Virus record (IMG/VR): IMGVR_UViG_3300044695_005206
Span: 1 to 40,684 of that record
Length of the DNA: 40,684 nt
Reading direction: 5' to 3' (one strand)
Source: a virus
Shown: piece after piece, positions 5,618 to 39,077 of the stretch
Position numbering within the stretch: position 1 is the first letter of the stretch
How the letters are laid out: each line of letters starts with the position of its first letter
Translations under genes and position numbers: made by a program
Notes under the pieces: generated by a model
Databases searched by the model: none
Told to the model about the DNA's origin: nothing
What the model saw: only the letters and a program-made list of their open reading frames with translations

Positions 5618-5871
5618 GCGAGCTCCACGCGCTGCACGATGCCGCCGCGCGACCAGACATCGACTCGGTGACCGAGCAGCCGCCAGACCTCGGCGCGGAT
5701 ATTGTCGTCGGCGAGCCGGAACCAGCGTACGTCGCGGTCGCCGGTCTGCCCGACGGACACGCCGAGCTGGTAGCCGTCGGCGAGCAGCATGACCGCGAGG
5801 CACAGGCCGCCAACGTGCTGCGTCAGCGGCGCTTCTTCGCCGGTGCTTCGGGACTCGGAGTCAGGAACCAT
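5614..5871 (-). CDS. Hypothetical protein (85 aa)
   Basis: No family recognised. The C-terminal 55 residues look like a small beta-rich domain (YQLGVSVGQTGDRDVRWFRL). The ATG at 5871 gives a 49-base overlap with the sigma gene; a later ATG at 5790 would give a 58-residue product that starts at this domain. Confidence 0.5.
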   Translation of the reverse strand: MVPDSESRSTGEEAPLTQHVGGLCLAVMLLADGYQLGVSVGQTGDRDVRWFRLADDNIRAEVWRLLGHRVDVWSRGGIVQRVELA

Positions 5872-6671
5872 GTGCGGAGGCTCGTCGGTGCGGGTGGAGG
5901 CGGAGCATCGGGGGCGTCTTCCTCGGGGACCAGCTTGCGGAATCGCGCCAGCAGCGCGGCCGGCGAGGCGTCCTGCCCGCGCGAGACGAGCAGCAGGCCG
6001 AGGACGCGCTTCGTTACCCGGTCGACATCGTTCTCGCGCCAGTAGGGCCACGTCCTCGCGTACCGCTCGGCGACCTGCGCGGGCGTCAGACGGTGCAGGA
6101 CGCGCAGAGAGAACAGCTCCCATTCCTCGCCTGGCACCTGCGGGACCGCCTCGCGGAGCTCGGCCCACGCCTCGGCGGGGCGCTCGGCGTCCTCGAGCAG
6201 GTCGTCGGCGCTGCGCTGGTGCGACGGCAGGCGGCGGGACAGGAGCTCGTCGTTCTCGTCGCGGGCAACGTCGAACGACTCGCCCGGCTCGAGGCGGCGC
6301 GCCGAGCCGGTGCGCCACCACGCCATGTAGTTGCGGTACGAGACCGGCGGGATCAGGCGGACCATCGCCTCGCGGATGCGGAGGTCGACCCAGTGCGCGG
6401 CGTATGACCATGGCGCGGTATCGTCGAGGCGGCTGACGTCGTACTTCTCGAGCCCCTGCACGAGCCCGACAGTGCCCTCGCAGATCAGGTCTTCGCGGAG
6501 TTCCGGGTCCATCGGCTTGCGGCCCGCGAAATACTGCACGCGAAGCTTCACGCTCGGAATCAGCCCGACGATCAGCCGCTCTCGCGCCTGTGCGTCACCC
6601 GCTCGCCACGCGACGACGAGGCGCCGCTGTTCGGCGGTCGGGAGGAACGGGGCGGAGGAGAGTTGGGACAG
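5823..6671 (-). CDS. Sigma-70-like factor with non-standard start
   Basis: The chain shows sigma region 2: AWRAGDAQARERLI, then a conserved DLICEGTVGLVQGLEKYD block and SYAAHWVDLRIREAM. A region-4-like helix-turn-helix follows near the middle (EEWELFSLRVLHRLTPAQVAERYART ... VTKRVLGLLL, residues split here). Such a factor would redirect host RNA polymerase to phage promoters. The first ATG/GTG/TTG is the GTG at 6551, which would cut off the start of region 2. Homology continues upstream through 6671, where an in-frame CTG follows GGGG. I used that CTG, giving 282 residues. In the same frame, one TAG (6711-6713) separates it from the upstream HTH gene. Confidence 0.75.
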   Translation of the reverse strand: MSQLSSAPFLPTAEQRRLVVAWRAGDAQARERLIVGLIPSVKLRVQYFAGRKPMDPELREDLICEGTVGLVQGLEKYDVSRLDDTAPWSYAAHWVDLRIREAMVRLIPPVSYRNYMAWWRTGSARRLEPGESFDVARDENDELLSRRLPSHQRSADDLLEDAERPAEAWAELREAVPQVPGEEWELFSLRVLHRLTPAQVAERYARTWPYWRENDVDRVTKRVLGLLLVSRGQDASPAALLARFRKLVPEEDAPDAPPPPAPTSLRTWFLTPSPEAPAKKRR

Positions 6672-7229: not shown

Positions 7230-7896
7230 CGGACTCTGCTTCCCATCGGTCGAGCAGCGCCTTGACGGCGTCGGTCCACGACGCGCCCTTGCACGACCGC
7301 ATGACGGCTTGCAGGCGCGAGACGAACGCCTGGTACTCGTCGGCCTCGATGTGAAGCACGAGCTCGCGCGTCTCGGCCTCGCCCACGTCGAGCGCGTCCA
7401 TCGTCGCGTCGGCCTCGTCAAGCACAGACTGCGGGAGCGTCGAGTCCTTCGCGGCCGAGCGGAGCAGCGCGTCGACCTCACTCTCCGAAAAGCCCGTACC
7501 CTGTAGCGCGTCGGCGTCGCGGAGGTCGGCAAGGATGGCGTTGAGCAGCTCCTTGTCGTAGCCGCCCGTCTCGACGATGCGATTCGACGCGACGAGGTAC
7601 GCCTCGGCGGCGGTCTCGTCAGCGAACGCGACACCGGCCAGCACGGGGACCAGCCACTCGCCGCCCGCGCCCACCTCGACGTTGCTCGGCGGCTTCTTGC
7701 CCTCGGCCTTAAGCTGCTCGAGCGCCTCAGCCCGACCGTGGCCGGCGACGATGCGCCCGCTCGTGCCGTCGCGGACGATGAGCTCGACGTAGCCAAATCG
7801 CTGCAGCGACGCCTTGATGGAGGCAAGGTCGTGCTTCTTCGGGTTGCGCGGCCAGCGTTGAATCTCGCTCAGCTTGTACGTCTCAATGCGCTGCAC
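7222..7896 (-). CDS. ParB/Srx-fold protein (224 aa)
   Basis: The N-terminal 60 residues match the ParB-like nuclease fold: YKLSEIQRWPRNPKKH and the RIVAGHGRAEAL nucleotide-binding motif. Phage proteins of this type may be nucleases, CTP or ATP hydrolases, or partners of methyltransferases. The C-terminal half is helical and acidic. The GTG at 7896 has GGAGG 6 bases upstream, inside the end of the ParB-methyltransferase gene, so the two are likely co-translated. A longer TTG start at 7911 seems less likely. Confidence 0.7.
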   Translation of the reverse strand: MQRIETYKLSEIQRWPRNPKKHDLASIKASLQRFGYVELIVRDGTSGRIVAGHGRAEALEQLKAEGKKPPSNVEVGAGGEWLVPVLAGVAFADETAAEAYLVASNRIVETGGYDKELLNAILADLRDADALQGTGFSESEVDALLRSAAKDSTLPQSVLDEADATMDALDVGEAETRELVLHIEADEYQAFVSRLQAVMRSCKGASWTDAVKALLDRWEAESDG

Positions 7897-9448
7897 GGCG
7901 CACCTCCGCAATCTCGGCGAACGTGCGGCCGTCGCCGTCGAGCGTCGCCGCCTGTCCCGTGAAGTCCTGCCAGCGGCGCACGATGACGTCGACGTGGTTC
8001 GGCGTGAGTTCCATCGTGTAGCAGACGCGGCCGGTTTTTTCGGCGCCCATCAGAGTCGACCCGCTGCCACCGAAGGGGTCAACGCACAGGCCGCCAGCCG
8101 GAAGGCTCGACCGCATGACGCGCTCCATCATCGGGACGGGCTTCGGTGTTGCGTGGCCGTGGCGCTCGGTGCCACTCACTCGGTCGTAATCCCAGACGTC
8201 TGTCATGTTCTCGTGCGTGTTGTCGAAGAAGGCTCGCGTCGCGTAGAAGTCGCGCTTGAGCGCGTCGTGCTCGCGCTTGAGCGCGTCGTGCTCCCGCTTG
8301 AAGGCGTCGTGCTCCCGCGCGGCGGCTTGCAGCTTTTCGTAGTTGGCTTGCGTGATGAACGCCCACTGCGAGCGCGTCACCCAACGCGCTGCCATCTGCG
8401 TTCCCGTGATGCGATTGAGGTCGGCGGTCGTCCAGTCGCAGCGCCGCATCTCGCCTTCAAGGTAGGAGCGAATCGGCTCCCATCCGTCCCAGTAGTTGTC
8501 CGCGTTGATGTTGAACCCTTGCGCGCCAAGCATGAGAAAGATGCAGCGTTCGCCCGAAGGCGCGAAGCTCCGCAGGTCGTCGGACGCCTGTCCGCTTGCG
8601 TTTGGCTTTCGCCAGACGATCTCGTTCCGCATCGTCAAGCGTTCGCTGTCCTGTAGCCCTCCGACGTACCAGAGGAGCCACAGGTCGGGCGCGTTGCCCC
8701 AGATGTACGCAGAGGCGTTGTCCTCGACGCTCGGCCGATACGCTCGCCACCATGCCATCTGGAAGGCGTCAAGCTTAGGCCCGTAGAGATTGTCATTCGC
8801 GACGCCGTCGGCTTCCTTGCCCATACCGTAGGGCGGGTCCGCATGAACGAGCGCGGCCTTCTTGCCGTCCATGAGCCGCTCGACCTGCGCGCGGTCGGTG
8901 CTGTCGCCGCACATCACCCGGTGCTTGCCGAGCAGCCAGACGTCGCCGAGCTTCGAGGTGGGCGCGACGGGCGCCTCGGGGACCGCGTCAGGGTCGCCCT
9001 CGGACTTGCCGAAGTCGACGCCGAGCGTCTCCATGAGCCGGTCGACCTCCTCGGCATCGAACCCGAGGTCCGTGGCCTCGATGCCGACGCCCGAGAGGTC
9101 GGCGAGTTCCTGCGCGAGCAGGGCTTCGGACCACGTCGACATGAGAGCCGACTGGTTGTCCAAAATGAGGTACGCCCGCTTCTGCTCGTTGGTGAGGTGC
9201 CGGAGTTCGATGCACGGCACCTCGACGAGCCCGAGCTTCTCGGCGGCCATGATCCGCCCGTGGCCTGCGATGACGCCCCGGTCGCCGTCGATGAGGATGG
9301 GGTTCGTGAAGCCGTATTCGGTGATCGACTTGCACAGGACGTCGATCTGCCGCTCATCGTGCGTGCGGCTGTTGCGCGCGTAGCCGATGAGCGACGCGGT
9401 GGCCCGCATCACGATCTGCGACGGCATCACTACCTTCGGGGCGGTCAT
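7883..9448 (-). CDS. ParB-domain / DNA N6-adenine methyltransferase fusion (521 aa)
   Basis: The N-terminal 130 residues are a ParB-like domain (VIAGHGR near 59-65; LILDNQ near 94-99). The rest is a beta-class amino-methyltransferase: catalytic DPPYG at 204-208 and the AdoMet-binding DPFGGSGST near the C-terminus. This order, common in phages and mobile elements, yields an adenine methyltransferase that may protect DNA from restriction. Residues 378-400 are three heptads of the type EHDALKR, encoded by a 21-bp tandem repeat (8249-8317) in the likely target-recognition region. Confidence 0.85.
   Translation of the reverse strand: MTAPKVVMPSQIVMRATASLIGYARNSRTHDERQIDVLCKSITEYGFTNPILIDGDRGVIAGHGRIMAAEKLGLVEVPCIELRHLTNEQKRAYLILDNQSALMSTWSEALLAQELADLSGVGIEATDLGFDAEEVDRLMETLGVDFGKSEGDPDAVPEAPVAPTSKLGDVWLLGKHRVMCGDSTDRAQVERLMDGKKAALVHADPPYGMGKEADGVANDNLYGPKLDAFQMAWWRAYRPSVEDNASAYIWGNAPDLWLLWYVGGLQDSERLTMRNEIVWRKPNASGQASDDLRSFAPSGERCIFLMLGAQGFNINADNYWDGWEPIRSYLEGEMRRCDWTTADLNRITGTQMAARWVTRSQWAFITQANYEKLQAAAREHDAFKREHDALKREHDALKRDFYATRAFFDNTHENMTDVWDYDRVSGTERHGHATPKPVPMMERVMRSSLPAGGLCVDPFGGSGSTLMGAEKTGRVCYTMELTPNHVDVIVRRWQDFTGQAATLDGDGRTFAEIAEVRRAAH
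8251..8313. repeat. 21-bp tandem repeat, three copies, inside the methyltransferase gene
   Basis: Two identical 21-bp units are followed by a third with a few mismatches. Each unit encodes one heptad, so copy-number change keeps the frame. Confidence 0.85.
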
Positions 9449-18555: not shown

Positions 18556-19551
18556 CTAGTGGTGCTCGGTGCCGCCCTTTCGCAGCAGATACCGCTCGGA
18601 GACGACCTTGAGCGTGCAGCGCACGGCCATCGAGACGCGCTCGACGACCGGCCGAACCACGACGCCCTCTCGGATGCCACCGTGTACCGAGTCCTCCTCT
18701 GCCAGCCGCGACAGCAGCGCCACGTCGAGCGGCCCTCGGTACAGCACCGGCACCGTCGGCAGCATCAGTTCGTCGAGCAGCGCCTCGGCCGCCCCGTGCG
18801 ACAGGTAGTCGCCGGTCCGCGAGTCGAAGACGTCGAAGAACGCCAGGGAGAGCCGCCCGTTCGTGTGGCCGTAGGTCATGTCTTGGACGCCGCTGCCATA
18901 GACCTCGCCGAAGAAGATCAGCCCCGGATGCCGCGCCAGCTTCTCGCGCAGGCCGTACTGCTCGGCCACCCGCGCCCAGACCGTCGTCCCGCCGTCGAGC
19001 TGCTTCCAGGTGCGGTGACTCCCGACGTGCAGCCGCCCCTCGGCGTCCACGACGAAGCGCCCGTTCGTGCCGTGCAACTTCTCGGTGACGACGACCTCCT
19101 CGCCCGCGTCGAACAGCAATGACCCGTAGTGCCGCCACGCTTCGAGCTCGTACGTCGGCACCAGCAGGCTCGGCGCCTTTGCCTGCTCGCCGGCCATCGA
19201 CACCGGCTCAGGCTCCTTGTATTTGACGATGCGGAGCCGCTCGGCGAGGTCGTCGCCCTCGGCCGCATCGGCGGGCGCCGGAATCAAGAGGCCCATCGAG
19301 AACGTCCCGCGCAGCCGCTTGGCGCGAATGCGGGTCGACGTCTTGCCCTCAGCCGCGAGGAACGCGAGCTCGGGCACCGTCGTGTCGACGACCGCGTCGA
19401 CCGGGACGTAGACCGCGAGATCGCCCTCGACGAACGAGCCGGTCCGCAGCACGACCGGGCAGCCGCGCACCTCGGTCAGAGACAGCGCGTCGGCGTTCGG
19501 GTGGCGCGAGATCGCGTTCACGCGAACGACAGGAACGGAAAAGGTGCTCAT
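18556..19551 (-). CDS. RNA ligase, Rnl5/DRB0094-like (331 aa)
   Basis: The C-terminal two thirds hold the nucleotidyltransferase motifs: motif I TEKLHGTNGR with the adenylated Lys at 158, motif III-like FFGEVYGSG near 213-221, motif IV REGVVVR near 294-300 and motif V TLKVVS near 313-318. The N-terminal about 110 residues form a separate domain, as in Deinococcus DRB0094-type ligases. The family seals 3'-OH/5'-phosphate nicks in RNA using ATP. A phage could use it to repair RNA cut by host defences, which is inference. The start overlaps the small gene upstream. Confidence 0.85.
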   Translation of the reverse strand: MSTFSVPVVRVNAISRHPNADALSLTEVRGCPVVLRTGSFVEGDLAVYVPVDAVVDTTVPELAFLAAEGKTSTRIRAKRLRGTFSMGLLIPAPADAAEGDDLAERLRIVKYKEPEPVSMAGEQAKAPSLLVPTYELEAWRHYGSLLFDAGEEVVVTEKLHGTNGRFVVDAEGRLHVGSHRTWKQLDGGTTVWARVAEQYGLREKLARHPGLIFFGEVYGSGVQDMTYGHTNGRLSLAFFDVFDSRTGDYLSHGAAEALLDELMLPTVPVLYRGPLDVALLSRLAEEDSVHGGIREGVVVRPVVERVSMAVRCTLKVVSERYLLRKGGTEHH

Positions 19552-30731: not shown

Positions 30732-31649
30732 ATGTCCGAACGCTTCATCGACAAGGCGACCTACCTACGGCTCGTCGAGGCGTTCCGAACGCACGGCACC
30801 AACTGGCGGCGCGTCTCCATCGAGGCGGACGTCAGCCGGAACACCGCCAAGCGGGCCTACAACGCCGGCTGGCTCGACCGTTGGGAATGGGCACGACCCA
30901 TCGCCTCGGTGCTCGCCGACGGGTCCGAGGAAGTCCGCGCCGCGCTGACCGCGACCGTCCAGGCCGAGCTCGAGGCCGAACGACGCGCCCGACCGAAGGC
31001 TCGTAACAAGGTCGCCGAGCGCCGAGCCGCCGAACGGCAAGCCGCCCTCGCCGACGCCGAGGCCCGCCGACAGGCCGACACGGTCGCCGAGGTCCAGCGC
31101 GCCGAGTCCGAGGCCGACGAGCTCCGCCGTCGCATTGCCGAGCAGGCGCTTCGGGAACGGGAGGAAGCCGCCCGAGCCCGAGCGGCCAAAGAGGCGGCCG
31201 AGGAGGCCGAGCGCGAGAAGGCCCGCCAACAGGCGCTCGAGGCCCGCACGCAGGAGGCTCAGCTCGTCCGTCTGGCTCGAGGCGCCGCCATCGGTACCCT
31301 CGGCGGGACGATGAGGCTCATGCCGGGCCTCGCTAAGCTGGCCGACCAATTGAGGGCCGCCATCGACGCCGGCCAGATTCCCATCGACAAGGCCGCCTCG
31401 ACCATCGGGCAGATCAGTCGCACGGTGAAGGACGCGACCCTCGCCGCACAGGTGGTTATCGAGCTCGAGCGCCTGCACGTCGGCGCCCCGCAAGCGATCA
31501 TCGGCGTCGTGCAGCATGAGATCAGCGTCGACGAGGCGGTGTCCGCCGTCCAAGAGGCCGAGGCCGCAGTCCAGCGCGCCCGGCAACTCGGGCTCGTCGC
31601 AGAGCAACAGAACGCCCTCGGGGCGCGAACGAAGGTGGCAGAGGCATGA
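30732..31649 (+). CDS. Small terminase subunit candidate with long coiled coil (305 aa)
   Basis: An N-terminal HTH-like segment (THGTNWRRVSIEADVSRNTA, about residues 20-39) would bind DNA. A long Ala/Glu/Arg-rich coiled coil follows (residues about 75-185), then a C-terminal helical domain (MPGLAKLADQLRAAIDAG). DNA-binding HTH plus oligomerising coiled coil in front of a large terminase fits a TerS role, but the length is more than usual. The start lacks a clear ribosome site and lies in the repeat array, so autoregulation is possible. Confidence 0.6.
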   Translation: MSERFIDKATYLRLVEAFRTHGTNWRRVSIEADVSRNTAKRAYNAGWLDRWEWARPIASVLADGSEEVRAALTATVQAELEAERRARPKARNKVAERRAAERQAALADAEARRQADTVAEVQRAESEADELRRRIAEQALREREEAARARAAKEAAEEAEREKARQQALEARTQEAQLVRLARGAAIGTLGGTMRLMPGLAKLADQLRAAIDAGQIPIDKAASTIGQISRTVKDATLAAQVVIELERLHVGAPQAIIGVVQHEISVDEAVSAVQEAEAAVQRARQLGLVAEQQNALGARTKVAEA

Positions 31650-32615: not shown

Positions 32616-32800
32616 CGCCCGAGGAGCTCATCACGCTCGACTGCTGCGAGCGTGCCGAGGACACCGGCCTCGTGACCTTCAACGAGGACAGCGTCCGTTG
32701 GGAGATCGTCCGACTGCAGCCCGACGGGTCGACCGTCGCCACCGGCATTGACCGCTGCCCATGGTGCGGCAAATGGCTGCGCCACCTCATCGCCGGATGA
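32612..32800 (+). CDS. Small protein with CPWCG motif (62 aa)
   Basis: Starts LITLDCCERAEDTG and ends RCPWCGKWLRHLIAG, so two Cys pairs could form one zinc site. GTG start, and the stop overlaps the terminase start by ATGA. Confidence 0.55.
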   Translation: MTPEELITLDCCERAEDTGLVTFNEDSVRWEIVRLQPDGSTVATGIDRCPWCGKWLRHLIAG

Positions 32801-34974
32801 CCAACCCGTCCGTCTACGACCGCGAGACGGCCGAGCGCCTCGCGATGGTCGAGCTCCGCCGCGCCGGGCAGCGGGCGAGGCAGGCGCACTACGCGCTGGC
32901 AGCGGCCGACCCGCTCTCGTTCGCCGAGATGGTCCTGCGCGACACGGCGACCGGCGAGAAGATCAAGCTGTCGGGCGAGCAGATTCGGTGGCACCTCGCC
33001 GCCGAGCGCAGCCGTCGCACGGTCCTTTGGGCGCACGACCAGTCGGGCCGGTCGCTCTGGGCGGTGTCCCGCATCCTGCACACCCTCGGGAAAAACAGGA
33101 ACGCGCGCATCGTCATCGTCGGTCGCACCCTGCCGGCGGCTCGGACGGTCCTCGGGCTCGTCGCCCGCTACCTCGACTCGTCGCCCGAGCTGCGGCATGT
33201 CTTCCCCGACCTGCGCCTCGATGGCGAGCCGAAGGCCCGCAGCCTCGCCGTCGCCGGCCGAGTCCACCGCGACCCGTCGGTGCAGGCCGTCGGGACCGGC
33301 CTCGGCCTCGTGTCCCGCGCCCCCATCGACCTGCTCGTCATCGACGACGCCCTCGCCGACGAGCACGTCCGCACGCCCGGCGCGCGCCAGCTCATTCGCG
33401 ACTGGTTTGAGGCGGTCCTTTTTGCATCCGTCTCGCCCTTCGGGCAGGTCGTCGCCCTCGGGACGCCGCTGCACCCCGAGGACGCCGTCTCCCGCCTCGC
33501 CTCGCAGCCTGACGTGCAGGTCGTCCGCTCGCCGGTCGTCGACGCCGCCGGCGTCCCGACGTGGCCCGAGAAGTGGTCCGTCGAGCGCGTCGAGCGGCGC
33601 AAGAAGGACATGGACGAACAAGCGTGGCAACGCCGGATGCTCGTCGCGCCCATCCTCTCGGCCGACATGCGGACCGCCGCCGAGCCGCTCAACTCGTTCA
33701 TCGAGCGCGTATCGGGCGGCTCGCTCATCGCCCCGCGTCACCTCGCGCCCCTCGTCGCCCTCCTCGAGCGCGCCCGACACGAGCCGGTCCGAGCCGTCGT
33801 CTCCGCCCCGCCGCAGCACGGCAAGTCCGAGACGATCATGCACGCGCTCGCGTGGCACCTCGCCCAAGACCCGACGCGAACGCACGCATACGTCACCTAC
33901 GCGGGCAACTTCGCGACCGACCAGAGCCGGCGCATCCGGTCAATCACCGACTCGGCCGGCGTCGAGATGTCCGACCAGGCGGCGCTCCGTCGCTGGCGCA
34001 CCGCTCGAGGCGGCGGGCTCATCGCCGAAGGCGTCTCGGGCCAACTCACGGGTAAGAGCGTCGACGGCATTTTCGTGATCGACGACCCCTACAAGGACCG
34101 CGTCGAGGCCGAGAGCGCGTTGAAACGCGAACGGGTATGGCAGTTCTTTACCGACGTCGCGAAGACGCGTTTGAACCCGGCGGCCTCCGTCATCGTCGTC
34201 CATACCCGCTGGCACGAGGACGACCTCGCCGGTCGACTCGCCAAGCAGGGCTGGGAGCGGGTCAACCTGCAGGCCGTCTCGCCCGAGGGCGCCCCGCTCT
34301 GGCCCGAGCGGTACACGCCCGCGTGGCTCAAGGAGCAGCGCGAGGCGCTCGGCGAATACTCGTGGGCCTCCCTCTATATGGGCGAGCCACGCCCGCGAGG
34401 CGGCGCCGTCTTCCGCGACGTCCGCCTGTACGACCCGCAGACGACCGTGGTCCGCTCGCACGTCTGGCGTGTGGCCATCGGCGTCGACCTTGCGTACACC
34501 GCTCGCGCCAAGGCCGACTACTCGACCGCCGTCGTCCTCGCCGCCGACGGGCAAGGCGTCTGCTACGTCCTCGACGTCATCCGGGCGCAGGTCGAGGCGC
34601 CCGCCTTTGCCTACCAGCTCGCGCAGCTCAAGCAGCGGTACGCCGCCCCGATCCTCTGGTACGCCGCCGGCACCGAGCAGGGCGTGGCGCAGTTCATCCG
34701 CAACCAAGGCGTGCCGCTCGAGGTGCAGGCACCGAAGGGCGACAAGTTCGTGAGGTCGATGCCGGTCGCCGCCGCGTGGAACGCCTCACGAATCTCGGTC
34801 CCGATGAACGCCGCATGGAGCAACGCCTTCGTGGAGGAGGTGCTCGCCTTTACCGGCGTCGGCGACCTGCACGACGATCAGGTGGACGCCCTCGCCGCCG
34901 CCTACGACCAGCTGTTCCCGCAAGTCGCGACCCCGGTCGCGCAAGTCCTCAACCTCGACCTCCGACGCCGATGA
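32797..34974 (+). CDS. Large terminase with two tandem ATPase modules (725 aa)
   Basis: Two terminase ATPase modules occur in one chain. The first (residues about 37-284) has AHDQSGRSLW at the Walker A position, LLVIDD at Walker B and LGTPLHPEDA at the coupling motif; Gly-Arg replaces the usual Gly-Lys. The second (about 330-530) has APPQHGKSET (Walker A 337-346), IFVIDDPYKD (Walker B) and VVHTRWHEDDLAG (coupling). The nuclease follows: IGVDLAYTARAKADYS with Asp564, then LHDDQVDAL. So the second half is a normal TerL and the first an apparently defective duplicate. Starts by ATGA overlap. Confidence 0.85.
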   Translation: MTNPSVYDRETAERLAMVELRRAGQRARQAHYALAAADPLSFAEMVLRDTATGEKIKLSGEQIRWHLAAERSRRTVLWAHDQSGRSLWAVSRILHTLGKNRNARIVIVGRTLPAARTVLGLVARYLDSSPELRHVFPDLRLDGEPKARSLAVAGRVHRDPSVQAVGTGLGLVSRAPIDLLVIDDALADEHVRTPGARQLIRDWFEAVLFASVSPFGQVVALGTPLHPEDAVSRLASQPDVQVVRSPVVDAAGVPTWPEKWSVERVERRKKDMDEQAWQRRMLVAPILSADMRTAAEPLNSFIERVSGGSLIAPRHLAPLVALLERARHEPVRAVVSAPPQHGKSETIMHALAWHLAQDPTRTHAYVTYAGNFATDQSRRIRSITDSAGVEMSDQAALRRWRTARGGGLIAEGVSGQLTGKSVDGIFVIDDPYKDRVEAESALKRERVWQFFTDVAKTRLNPAASVIVVHTRWHEDDLAGRLAKQGWERVNLQAVSPEGAPLWPERYTPAWLKEQREALGEYSWASLYMGEPRPRGGAVFRDVRLYDPQTTVVRSHVWRVAIGVDLAYTARAKADYSTAVVLAADGQGVCYVLDVIRAQVEAPAFAYQLAQLKQRYAAPILWYAAGTEQGVAQFIRNQGVPLEVQAPKGDKFVRSMPVAAAWNASRISVPMNAAWSNAFVEEVLAFTGVGDLHDDQVDALAAAYDQLFPQVATPVAQVLNLDLRRR

Positions 34975-35201
34975 CAAAGAACAAGACGAAGCCAAAAGCC
35001 AAACGCATCCACACCGACGAGGCGCTGCCCGTCTGGGCGCTCGACTCCGGCCACGACGGCCTCCTCGAAATCTACGCGGTGAACGGCCGCCTCGAACTGC
35101 GCTGTGACCTGACCTTCGTCAACGACGACTCCGACGACGAGGACGGCCTCGCCCGGCTCAAGGAAGAGGCGGCGGGCTACGCCGAGGGGAATCGGGAATG
35201 A
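34971..35201 (+). CDS. Small acidic protein (76 aa)
   Basis: A basic start (MTKNKTKPKAKR) is followed by a strand-rich acidic part (LLEIYAVNGRLELRCDLTFV). ATGA overlap with the terminase stop. Function unknown. Confidence 0.5.
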   Translation: MTKNKTKPKAKRIHTDEALPVWALDSGHDGLLEIYAVNGRLELRCDLTFVNDDSDDEDGLARLKEEAAGYAEGNRE

Positions 35202-36079
35202 GCGCAGCCGACGAGATCAAGGCTCGCCTCGCCGGTCGCCGCGTCGTCGCCAGCGTCAGCGGCGGCAAGGACTCGGCCGCCATGTCGCTCTACCTGACCG
35301 AGCTCGGCATCGAGCACGACCGAGTCTTCTGCGACACCGGCTGGGAGCACGACCTGACCTACGAGTACCTGCGCGGGCCGCTCGTCGAGAAGCTCGGGCC
35401 GATCACTTGGCTGGAGCCCAAGCGGAAGATGGAAGAGCTGATTCTTCACAAGGGCATGTTCCCGAGCCGGCAGCGCCGCTGGTGTACGCAGGAACTCAAG
35501 GTCCGTCCTTTGGCGCGACACTTCAAGGCCCGGATGGACGAGGGTGACGACATCGTCAACGCGGTCGGGATTCGCGCGGCCGAGTCCGAGTCGCGGTCCA
35601 AGATGCCCGAATGGGAGTGGCAGGACGGTTTTGACTGCGAGGTCTGGCGACCGCTCCTGCGGTGGTCCGAGCAGGACGTCATCGACATTCATCACAGGCA
35701 CGGGCTTCGACCGAACCCGCTCTACCTGCGCGGGGCGCAGCGCGTGGGCTGCTGGCCGTGCATCTACGCCCGCAAGGACGAGATCAAGTTGATTGCCGAC
35801 ACTGACCCTGACCGCATCGTCCGTCTGCGAGTGCTTGAAGGACAGGTGGCTGAGAAGGCGCACGCCCGAGCCGCCGAGAAAGGCGAGACGCTCAAGAACG
35901 ACCCCGCGTGGTTCCAGGCGAAGAACGGGGGCACTGGCGACTGCTGGCCCATCGACAAGGCCGTCGAGTGGTCGAGGACGGCCCGAGGCGGAAAGCAGTT
36001 TGAACTGTTCGCCGCCGACTCTCGGGATGCGGGATGCATGAGGTGGGGACTCTGTGAGACGAATGGGAGGTCTGAATGA
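35198..36079 (+). CDS. PAPS-reductase/DndC-like PP-loop protein (293 aa)
   Basis: The PP-loop SVSGGKDSAAMS lies at residues 19-30, as in CysH and DndC proteins that bind ATP-type nucleotides. Four Cys (WCTQELK, GCWPC, CMRWGLC) may hold an iron-sulfur cluster. In phages, such proteins may affect sulfur use or DNA modification; here a role in DNA modification is suggested only by the methyltransferases nearby. Overlaps the upstream stop by ATGA. Confidence 0.75.
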   Translation: MSAADEIKARLAGRRVVASVSGGKDSAAMSLYLTELGIEHDRVFCDTGWEHDLTYEYLRGPLVEKLGPITWLEPKRKMEELILHKGMFPSRQRRWCTQELKVRPLARHFKARMDEGDDIVNAVGIRAAESESRSKMPEWEWQDGFDCEVWRPLLRWSEQDVIDIHHRHGLRPNPLYLRGAQRVGCWPCIYARKDEIKLIADTDPDRIVRLRVLEGQVAEKAHARAAEKGETLKNDPAWFQAKNGGTGDCWPIDKAVEWSRTARGGKQFELFAADSRDAGCMRWGLCETNGRSE

Positions 36080-36867: not shown

Positions 36868-38637
36868 ATGTCGAGCGGCACACTGGTGGACTGGACGGCC
36901 ACGCAAACCGTCTTCGGAGCTGCGATAGGCGGGGGCGCGATTCCCGATCAGTCGGACATCATGGGGCGCATCAAGCGCCTCGGCATGTCGCCGCGCCAGG
37001 TCGAGCTGAACCATCTGTGGAGCATCTATAGATCCGCTCAGTATGAGACCTGCTCGTCCGAGTGGGACGGGTCGCAGAAGATCAGTCGCATCGACCGCGA
37101 GGCGATCAACTCGGGCGCCTACATCCCGCCGGGCTTCTACGACCTCGGCGCGATGCTGCCACTGCGGTTCCGCAAGCCGACCGCGCCCTACCCGCTCGCC
37201 CGCGTCATCGTCGACCGCTTCACGAGCCTGCTGTTCAGCGAGAAGCGCCACCCGCGCGTCAAGGTCGAGGACGACGACGCGACGGACGATTATGTCGGCG
37301 CGCTGCTCGAGGCGTCTCGCTTCTGGCCGACGTGGATGCAGGCGCGTGGCTTCGGCGGCGCGATGGGCTCGGTGGCCGTCGGCTTCTCCATCCTCGCCGG
37401 CAAGCCGCACCTCGAGATCTTCGACCCGCGATGGGCAACGCCGACCTTCGTCTCCCGCACCGGCAACGAGCTCAAGCGGATCGAGGTGCTCTACCAGTAC
37501 CCGCGCGAGATCTACGACGGCGAGACGGGCGTCTGGCGCGAGGTGCCGTTCTGGTATCGCCGCGTCATCGACGCCGAGCGGGACATCGTCTACCGCTCCA
37601 TCCCGGTCACCGACGAGGCGCCGGTCTGGCAGGTCGAGAACGAGGTCGTCCACGGGCTCGGCGAGGTTCCGGTCGTCTGGGTGCAGAACACCCCGAGCCA
37701 GGACGATGCCGACGGCGACAGCGACTATCACGGCGTCCTCGAGATGCTGCATGCCATCGACCAGCTTCTCGCCCAGGCGCAGATCGGCACCATCGCGAAC
37801 GCCGACCCGACGCTCGTCATCTCGACCGACGCCTCGCTCCCGCCCGATCTCGCGAAAGGCTCGCGCGCCCCGATCCAGCTCCCGTCCTCGGGCAAGGCTC
37901 AGTACCTCGAGCTGCAGGGCATCGGCGCGAAGGCCGCGACCGAGCTCGCCGACCTCTACCGCAAGCGCGTCCTTGAGGCGTGCCACTGCGTCCTCGACGA
38001 CGCCGCCAGCGACGGCAGCGCGAAGGTCCGCCGCACCGCGACCGAAATTGAGCGCAGCTACGCGGCGATGATCGCCCGCACCGACGTCCTGCGCGAGCAG
38101 TGGGCCGAGATGGGGCTCAAGCCGCTCCTGCGGAAGATGCTGCGAGCCATCCGACACGTCGAGCAGGGGCGCGTCGGCGAGGACGGCCGAGTCGTTCGCG
38201 GCGTCGTCGTCATACCGCCGCACATCGACCGCGACGCGAACGGGAAGATCGTCGGCAAGCGTCCCCGCGAGATCGGCGAGGGCGAGGTCATCGAGCTCGT
38301 CTGGCCGTCGTACTTCGAGCCGACCATCGACGACGCGGACACGGCCGTGAAGACCGCCGCCGCCGCGCTCGCCGGCCAGCTCGTCGACCAGGAGGCCGCC
38401 GTCGCGTACGTCGCGCCGTTCTTCCACGTCGGCGACCCGAAGGCGATGGCCGACCGCATCCGCAACGAGGCGGCCAAGCAGGCCGCGCTCGTCGCCGGCA
38501 TCGAGGCGGGTCTGCCCGCCGGCGAGGTCATCGACGGTCCCGGCGGCGCCTCGCCGTTCGCGGCCGAGGACGAGCCCGCTGAGGACGAGCAGCCGGTCGA
38601 GGGCGAGGACGTCGAGGAGGCGGAGGTCGAGGCGTGA
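36868..38637 (+). CDS. Portal protein (589 aa)
   Basis: A phage portal (SPP1 gp6/HK97-like size) with landmarks: N-terminal LWSIYRSAQYETCSSEWDG, the wing and stem region (YLELQGIGAKAATELADLYRKRVLEACHCVLDDA) and a C-terminal helical barrel. The end is Glu/Asp-rich (EDEPAEDEQPVEGED). It forms the DNA entry channel of the capsid and binds the terminase. ATG with GGAG upstream. Confidence 0.8.
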   Translation: MSSGTLVDWTATQTVFGAAIGGGAIPDQSDIMGRIKRLGMSPRQVELNHLWSIYRSAQYETCSSEWDGSQKISRIDREAINSGAYIPPGFYDLGAMLPLRFRKPTAPYPLARVIVDRFTSLLFSEKRHPRVKVEDDDATDDYVGALLEASRFWPTWMQARGFGGAMGSVAVGFSILAGKPHLEIFDPRWATPTFVSRTGNELKRIEVLYQYPREIYDGETGVWREVPFWYRRVIDAERDIVYRSIPVTDEAPVWQVENEVVHGLGEVPVVWVQNTPSQDDADGDSDYHGVLEMLHAIDQLLAQAQIGTIANADPTLVISTDASLPPDLAKGSRAPIQLPSSGKAQYLELQGIGAKAATELADLYRKRVLEACHCVLDDAASDGSAKVRRTATEIERSYAAMIARTDVLREQWAEMGLKPLLRKMLRAIRHVEQGRVGEDGRVVRGVVVIPPHIDRDANGKIVGKRPREIGEGEVIELVWPSYFEPTIDDADTAVKTAAAALAGQLVDQEAAVAYVAPFFHVGDPKAMADRIRNEAAKQAALVAGIEAGLPAGEVIDGPGGASPFAAEDEPAEDEQPVEGEDVEEAEVEA

Positions 38638-39077
38638 TCATCTGCATCGACTTCGACTCGACCCTTGTCGACGAGTGGGGCCGGAAGTTCTCGGACGTCA
38701 CGACGCCGCTCAAGCTCATGGGCGGCGCTCGCAAGGCGCTACAGGCGATGAAGGCCGCAGGCCACGTCGTGCTCGTCTCGTCGGCGCGAGCAAACCGCGC
38801 CCTCCGCATCGACCCCGAACTCGACCCGCTCGTCCGAGCCGGCGTCGTGAAGCTCGACCGCAAGGCGTGGGAGGCCGAGCAGCCGCTCCACGAGGCGCGC
38901 TACCAGCAGATGGTGCAGTTCTGCGCGACGCAGCTCAAAGGGCTCGTCGACGCGGTGGACGACGGCGGGCAGGGGAAGCCCGTGGCGGACCTCTACATCG
39001 ACGACCGGGCGCTTCGGTTCGGTGGCGGCGTGGATGGTCACAACTGGTTCGACATCGCCCGCCAGTTCGGGGCGTGA
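38634..39077 (+). CDS. HAD-superfamily hydrolase (147 aa)
   Basis: Motif I IDFDSTLVDEWG (residues 5-16) gives the nucleophile Asp6 and Asp8, VLVSSAR is motif II-like, and LYIDDRAL is motif IV-like. Similar small HAD proteins in phages may remove phosphates from nucleotides or DNA ends. GTG start with GTGA overlap to the portal stop. Confidence 0.75.
   Translation: MIICIDFDSTLVDEWGRKFSDVTTPLKLMGGARKALQAMKAAGHVVLVSSARANRALRIDPELDPLVRAGVVKLDRKAWEAEQPLHEARYQQMVQFCATQLKGLVDAVDDGGQGKPVADLYIDDRALRFGGGVDGHNWFDIARQFGA

Follow-up and report, generated by a model that had tools for sequence, protein, structure and literature searches.

The window (the whole 40,684-nucleotide stretch of viral DNA analysed here) carries a large terminase (TerL) gene located between a candidate small terminase (TerS) gene and a portal gene. 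The features of this region, and of the TerL protein in particular, are as follows.

30732-31649, plus strand: candidate TerS of the resident lineage, from its apparent helix-turn-helix (HTH), coiled coil, conserved C-terminal region, and synteny
32797-34974, plus strand: TerL gene, 725 aa, well supported as chimeric (PHROG 38 matches in both halves, half-versus-half match, six further contigs)
32797-33651, plus strand: N-module, residues 1-285, N-terminus and ATPase of a resident-lineage TerL, predicted pseudo-ATPase (profile, fold, joint tree)
33034-33054, plus strand: degenerate Walker A of the N-module, HDQSGRS, residues 80-86 (alignments)
33331-33348, plus strand: retained Walker B of the N-module, LLVIDD, residues 179-184 (alignments)
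33427-33429, plus strand: serine (S211) at the predicted trans-arginine finger position of the N-module (alignments; position from PMC5727402)
33454-33483, plus strand: coupling-like motif of the N-module, ALGTPLHPED, residues 220-229 (alignments)
33652-33690, plus strand: inter-module junction, in the place of the charged N-terminal stretch of C-type TerLs
33688-34398, plus strand: C-module ATPase with intact motifs (Walker A PPQHGKS, 338-344; Walker B DD, 429-430; R458; TRWHEDD, 470-476)
34402-34920, plus strand: RNase H-like nuclease domain (Terminase_6C; acidic residues D564, D693, D694, and D697)
36868-38637, plus strand: portal protein of the resident lineage (PHROG portal matches, relatives, tree)

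Two further genes lie amid the packaging genes, one PAPS reductase-like (35198-36079, plus strand) and one phosphoheptose isomerase-like (38634-39077, plus strand). Elsewhere, and on the minus strand, the window encodes a DNA methylase of the N6/N4 type with a fused ParB N-terminal-like region (7883-9448; the ParB match does not reach the curated cut-off), an RNA ligase with an OB-fold domain (18556-19551), and a sigma-70 region 2-like protein (5823-6551; match slightly below the curated cut-off).

The TerL frame begins with an ATG at 32797 (a possible alternative ATG is found at 32761) and runs for 725 residues without an internal stop. A first-pass annotation of this DNA had proposed two TerL ATPase modules in one protein, and profile searches of the separate halves bear this out: the N-terminal half alone matches the TerL family PHROG 38 over residues 23-292 (profile positions 266-527, E=2e-31), the C-terminal half alone matches it over residues 315-711 (profile positions 293-708, E=1e-76), and BLASTP aligns the two halves with each other (E=1e-8, 24% over 132 aa). 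A frame error or a pair of separate genes is excluded, as the frame is single in every contig with a complete two-module gene. Pfam detects the second half only, with Terminase_6N at residues 336-540 and Terminase_6C at 561-704; the latter agrees with the earlier statement that a nuclease follows just the second module. The N-module ends at about residue 285 and C-type sequence starts by residue 298, so that the nuclease is absent from the N-module.

Judging from motifs and modelled fold, residues 298-725 amount to an almost complete TerL from a different lineage, in which the ATPase and nuclease motifs are intact. The catalytic lysine, K343, is invariant together with that of all 61 C-type ATPases compared, and the Walker B (D429, D430) and coupling residues (T470, H473, D475) are present. 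The acidic residues of the nuclease (D564, D693, D694, D697) are invariant in the C-half alignment; the domain finds the nucleases of G20c, P22, and SPP1 as structural matches, and the structure model with its PDB matches gives the C-half the fold of an ordinary TerL, an ATPase followed by an RNase H-like nuclease.

The N-module also has a TerL ATPase fold, as structure prediction of residues 1-297 indicates. The AlphaFold model, for which the input alignment consisted of the N-halves of five two-module proteins only, is of modest quality (pLDDT 62, pTM 0.63); its top twelve matches among solved structures are all TerLs (Z 13.7-18.6, including PhiV-1, HK97, P74-26, T4, and T7), followed by DEAD-box domains at Z of 13.3 or less. 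Independently of the model, a profile of the N-half hits TerL ATPases of known structure, those of PhiV-1 and T7, and aligns the P-loops (HDESGRS versus RGIGKS). An unrelated fold for residues 1-300 is excluded by the PHROG 38 match, these profile matches, and the model fold. A phmmer search of the PDB with the full-length protein found nothing, and the full-length model (pTM 0.48) leaves the relative placement of the two modules unfixed. Among solved structures, 8dgc comes closest to both modules; it is a TerL bound by Avs3, which would suit a decoy or shield role in which the inactive N-module guards the real motor against TerL-sensing defence proteins of the Avs type; this reading is highly improbable, as nothing in the sequences points to it and the association with TerS described below would be left unexplained.

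The residues needed for catalysis differ between the modules. In the N-module Walker A, R85 (33049-33051) aligns with K343 and stands at the position of the catalytic lysine; the first-pass annotation was right that this motif is degenerate, but the change is a lysine-to-arginine substitution at R85 and not simply SGRS in place of GK(S/T). All 19 single N-type TerLs and all 61 C-type ATPases carry the lysine, and all N-modules carry arginine instead, which answers the annotation's call to look for the lysine in homologues. The position between alpha-3 and beta-4 that is taken as the trans-arginine finger site of TerL (PMC5727402) shows the same pattern, with arginine in 18 of 19 N-type singles and in 61/61 C-type ATPases and serine in all N-modules; the equivalence of S211 to this site is inferred from the alignments. 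R155 had been favoured by a first alignment as a retained second finger arginine and was set aside, N-type singles conserving no arginine there. Both substitutions, lysine to arginine and arginine to serine, coincide with the two-module state. Because both residues are replaced, the N-module is predicted to have lost ATP hydrolysis, in line with the earlier view that the first module is probably inactive, while ATP binding may be possible. Deviant Walker A motifs occur in some terminases, lambda gpA being one example, hydrolysis by TerLs with deviant P-loops has been suggested, and the N-module keeps the Walker B DD, T223, H226, and D229, which would allow for hydrolysis through an atypical Walker A; with a P-loop that lacks a compensating lysine, and with the finger-position arginine gone as well, continued hydrolysis is quite unlikely.

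The complete two-module arrangement is also encoded by six more viral contigs (L002, L003, L004, L009, L010, and L011), which represent four further distinct sequences. One is identical to the window over the protein and two are 93-96% identical in the N-half; the remaining three, two of which are alike, have N-half identities of 42-47% and a C-half identity of about 68%. Two additional contigs break off within the C-half. To the annotation's question of whether homologues have one module or two, the answer is mixed, since the more distant relatives of the C-half, as well as the relatives linked to the portal, are single-module. No further two-module protein is found among the matches listed from searches with the N-module profile, a P-loop DNA pattern, and C-type sequences. 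The N-half has five weak matches in phage records and four in plasmids, mostly annotated as terminase; one of the phage records, MW202423, has a TerL of ordinary length, as does MW202426, the best match of the C-half. Comparison of the window with L003 gives 96-99% identity in the N-module and C ATPase and just 82% in the nuclease part (34402-34920), which suggests recombination at the ATPase/nuclease border.

Sequence comparison indicates that the N-module is kept by purifying selection, though it evolves faster than the C ATPase. Its dN/dS is about 0.09 and 0.21 against two near relatives and 0.43 inside the second sub-lineage (pairs between sub-lineages are near saturation and were left out), and identity between the two sub-lineages is 41-47% in the N-module versus about 73% in the C ATPase. 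No stop or frameshift occurs in the N-module among the five distinct sequences of the two sub-lineages. Invariant positions make up 39/69 of the motif regions, which were picked by the analyst, versus 59/177 elsewhere in the module, and 3 of 246 circular shifts score as high. These observations bear on the idea that the fusion is recent and the old ATPase an evolutionary relic, a tolerated N-terminal passenger. Loss of two catalytic residues and amino-acid divergence faster than that of the C-half are what a relic might display; the purifying selection, the uninterrupted frames, and the invariant motif positions speak against it, and given the selection data a relic is the less likely reading and an improbable one.

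The N-module and C-module are homologous, and the annotation had described a duplicated module. Relatives of the N-module were found through the portal gene adjoining the TerL region: portal relatives outside the two-module phages and the L115 group are 42-53% identical, and they are linked to single-ATPase TerLs of ordinary length with a nuclease. The N-module profile matches the near-complete ones among these TerLs with E values of 1e-44 to 1e-64 (150-216 bits; fragments score lower), versus 35-76 bits for the C-module profile. In a joint tree the N-modules group with the 19 N-type TerLs, while the C-modules group with their C-type counterparts and the TerL of contig L115, SH-aLRT being 100 for each group; this tree and the portal tree are quick searches with SH-aLRT support alone, and the sequence sets are viral contigs, many of them fragmentary. 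Forcing both modules into one clade costs 114 log units (p-AU 4.7e-5). An earlier tree, limited to C-type relatives and with the N-type TerLs absent, could not reject internal tandem duplication of the TerL ATPase (AU p 0.176), but with the N-type singles added the modules fall into two lineages and, within the limits of the model, duplication becomes so improbable as to be negligible. Because the joint tree separates the modules and the AU test rejects a common clade, the window protein is well supported as a chimera in which a resident TerL ATPase is fused to a foreign TerL. By these trees and profiles, the single-ATPase TerL that accompanies this phage's portal and TerS family is the ancestor of residues 1-285, which have lost its nuclease.

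The gene at 30732-31649 is a candidate TerS from its architecture (what looks like an HTH at the N-terminus, then a coiled coil, then a conserved region at the C-terminus) and its synteny; a PHROG search with it gave no terminase match, nor did any other family library put a name to it. It lies upstream of TerL in every two-module contig that holds that stretch, and 13/19 N-type loci have a relative located 5' of TerL (in L122 about 2.7 kb from TerL; in L124 as a fragment match at the locus end). Resident-type TerS was found in 0/56 C-type tree rows and in none of the later C-type loci among the matches listed. The N-module was also considered as a stand-in for a missing TerS, an idea dropped since the candidate TerS is present upstream. 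L115 is informative in this respect: the portal tree makes it the sister of the two-module phages, with which it has many other genes of this lineage in common, and the joint tree makes its C-type TerL the nearest relative of the C-module. The small protein directly upstream of the L115 TerL matches proteins directly upstream of C-type TerLs. Positions 1-2394 of L115 hold a foreign-type TerS and TerL pair in a phage with this lineage's portal. No N-module is found on its 19.7-kb record, a fragment in which TerL lies about 1.4 kb from a contig end.

The best explanation, and on balance a probable one, is that the chimera's N-module is a pseudo-ATPase adaptor on which the resident TerS docks, linking it to a motor borrowed from another lineage. 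This role is inferred because the chimeras keep the resident TerS, and L115, with a C-type TerS, shows no N-module on its record; the annotation's suggestion of a regulatory or structural role for the first module is to this extent probably correct. The C-half would pump and cut DNA. The N-module, no longer hydrolysing ATP but perhaps still binding it, would offer the resident TerS its familiar TerL N-terminal and ATPase surface, so that DNA recognized by the old TerS would pass to the borrowed motor via the N-module. In P22 a TerS-binding site lies within TerL residues 1-58 (PMC9611059). The charged N-terminal stretch of C-type TerLs is a putative site for their own TerS. The HK97 motor has its nuclease ring turned towards the portal and its ATPase domains on the far side of that ring (PMC10359639), and with this orientation an N-terminal addition would sit on the outer, DNA-entry side. 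A possible route to the fusion would be a single deletion in a tandem TerS-TerL/TerS'-TerL' arrangement, which would have taken out the nuclease of the resident TerL together with the foreign TerS and the N-terminal stretch of the foreign TerL. Several points weigh against an adaptor: the link between N-module and resident TerS reflects one or two lineage events, with few independent ones; L115 is a fragment; the TerS gene is a candidate by domain layout and gene order; and the divergence of the N-module between sub-lineages is high for a simple scaffold.

The main alternative, though a rather unlikely one, is a second-ring motor, in which the N-modules would form a pseudo-ATPase ring, kept ATP-bound through the lysine-to-arginine change and stacked on the active ring, that grips DNA or holds the ring together, like tandem-ATPase machines with an inactive ring. 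It would account for an N-module fused in line with the motor, for the retention of Walker B and surrounding positions while the lysine and finger arginine are gone, and for the motif regions being the more conserved part of the module; it leaves unexplained both the pairing of the N-module with the resident TerS and its absence from the record of L115, which has a related motor. We know of no precedent for a TerL pentamer carrying ten ATPase domains. A built-in pseudo-ATPase ring of degenerate, TerS-facing N-modules stacked on the foreign active ring may be entertained tentatively; if that is the arrangement, one phage lineage fitted a new engine to the recognition and entry machinery it already had.

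Phage terminases recombine, and how a motor can be swapped without losing recognition of the phage's own DNA is poorly understood. The window protein resembles such a swap, one in which the old ATPase stayed on in a non-catalytic role, and would be a TerL-derived pseudoenzyme within the packaging motor. A limited search of open-access text found no report of a two-ATPase, duplicated, or pseudo-ATPase TerL. If the N-module is indeed an adaptor, residues 1-297 mark the part of TerL that is read by TerS, an open question according to reviews (PMC9611059), and provide a model from nature for joining a TerS with a TerL to which it does not belong.

Known single-ATPase TerLs (T4 gp17, P74-26, HK97, T7 gp19, and PhiV-1) share with the C-half the ATPase and RNase H-like nuclease and with the N-module the ATPase fold; the window protein differs from them in having two ATPase modules per chain, the first of which comes from another TerL lineage and is without nuclease, catalytic lysine, or finger arginine. 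The N-terminal TerS-binding segment of the P22 and lambda TerLs resembles the job proposed for the N-module, docking TerS, but the N-terminal part of the window protein is an entire ATPase module that stems from a different TerL. The packaging ATPase of the phi29 type is, like the N-module, without a nuclease; phi29 gp16 is active and free-standing, whereas the N-module is a degenerate part of a chain that also contains a complete TerL. Tandem ATPase machines, such as NSF, dynein, and some double-ring AAA+ proteins, combine active and inactive modules in one chain, as does the window protein; these belong to other ATPase families and their modules are old parts of one machine, whereas the fusion in the window unites two versions of one viral enzyme, from separate lineages.
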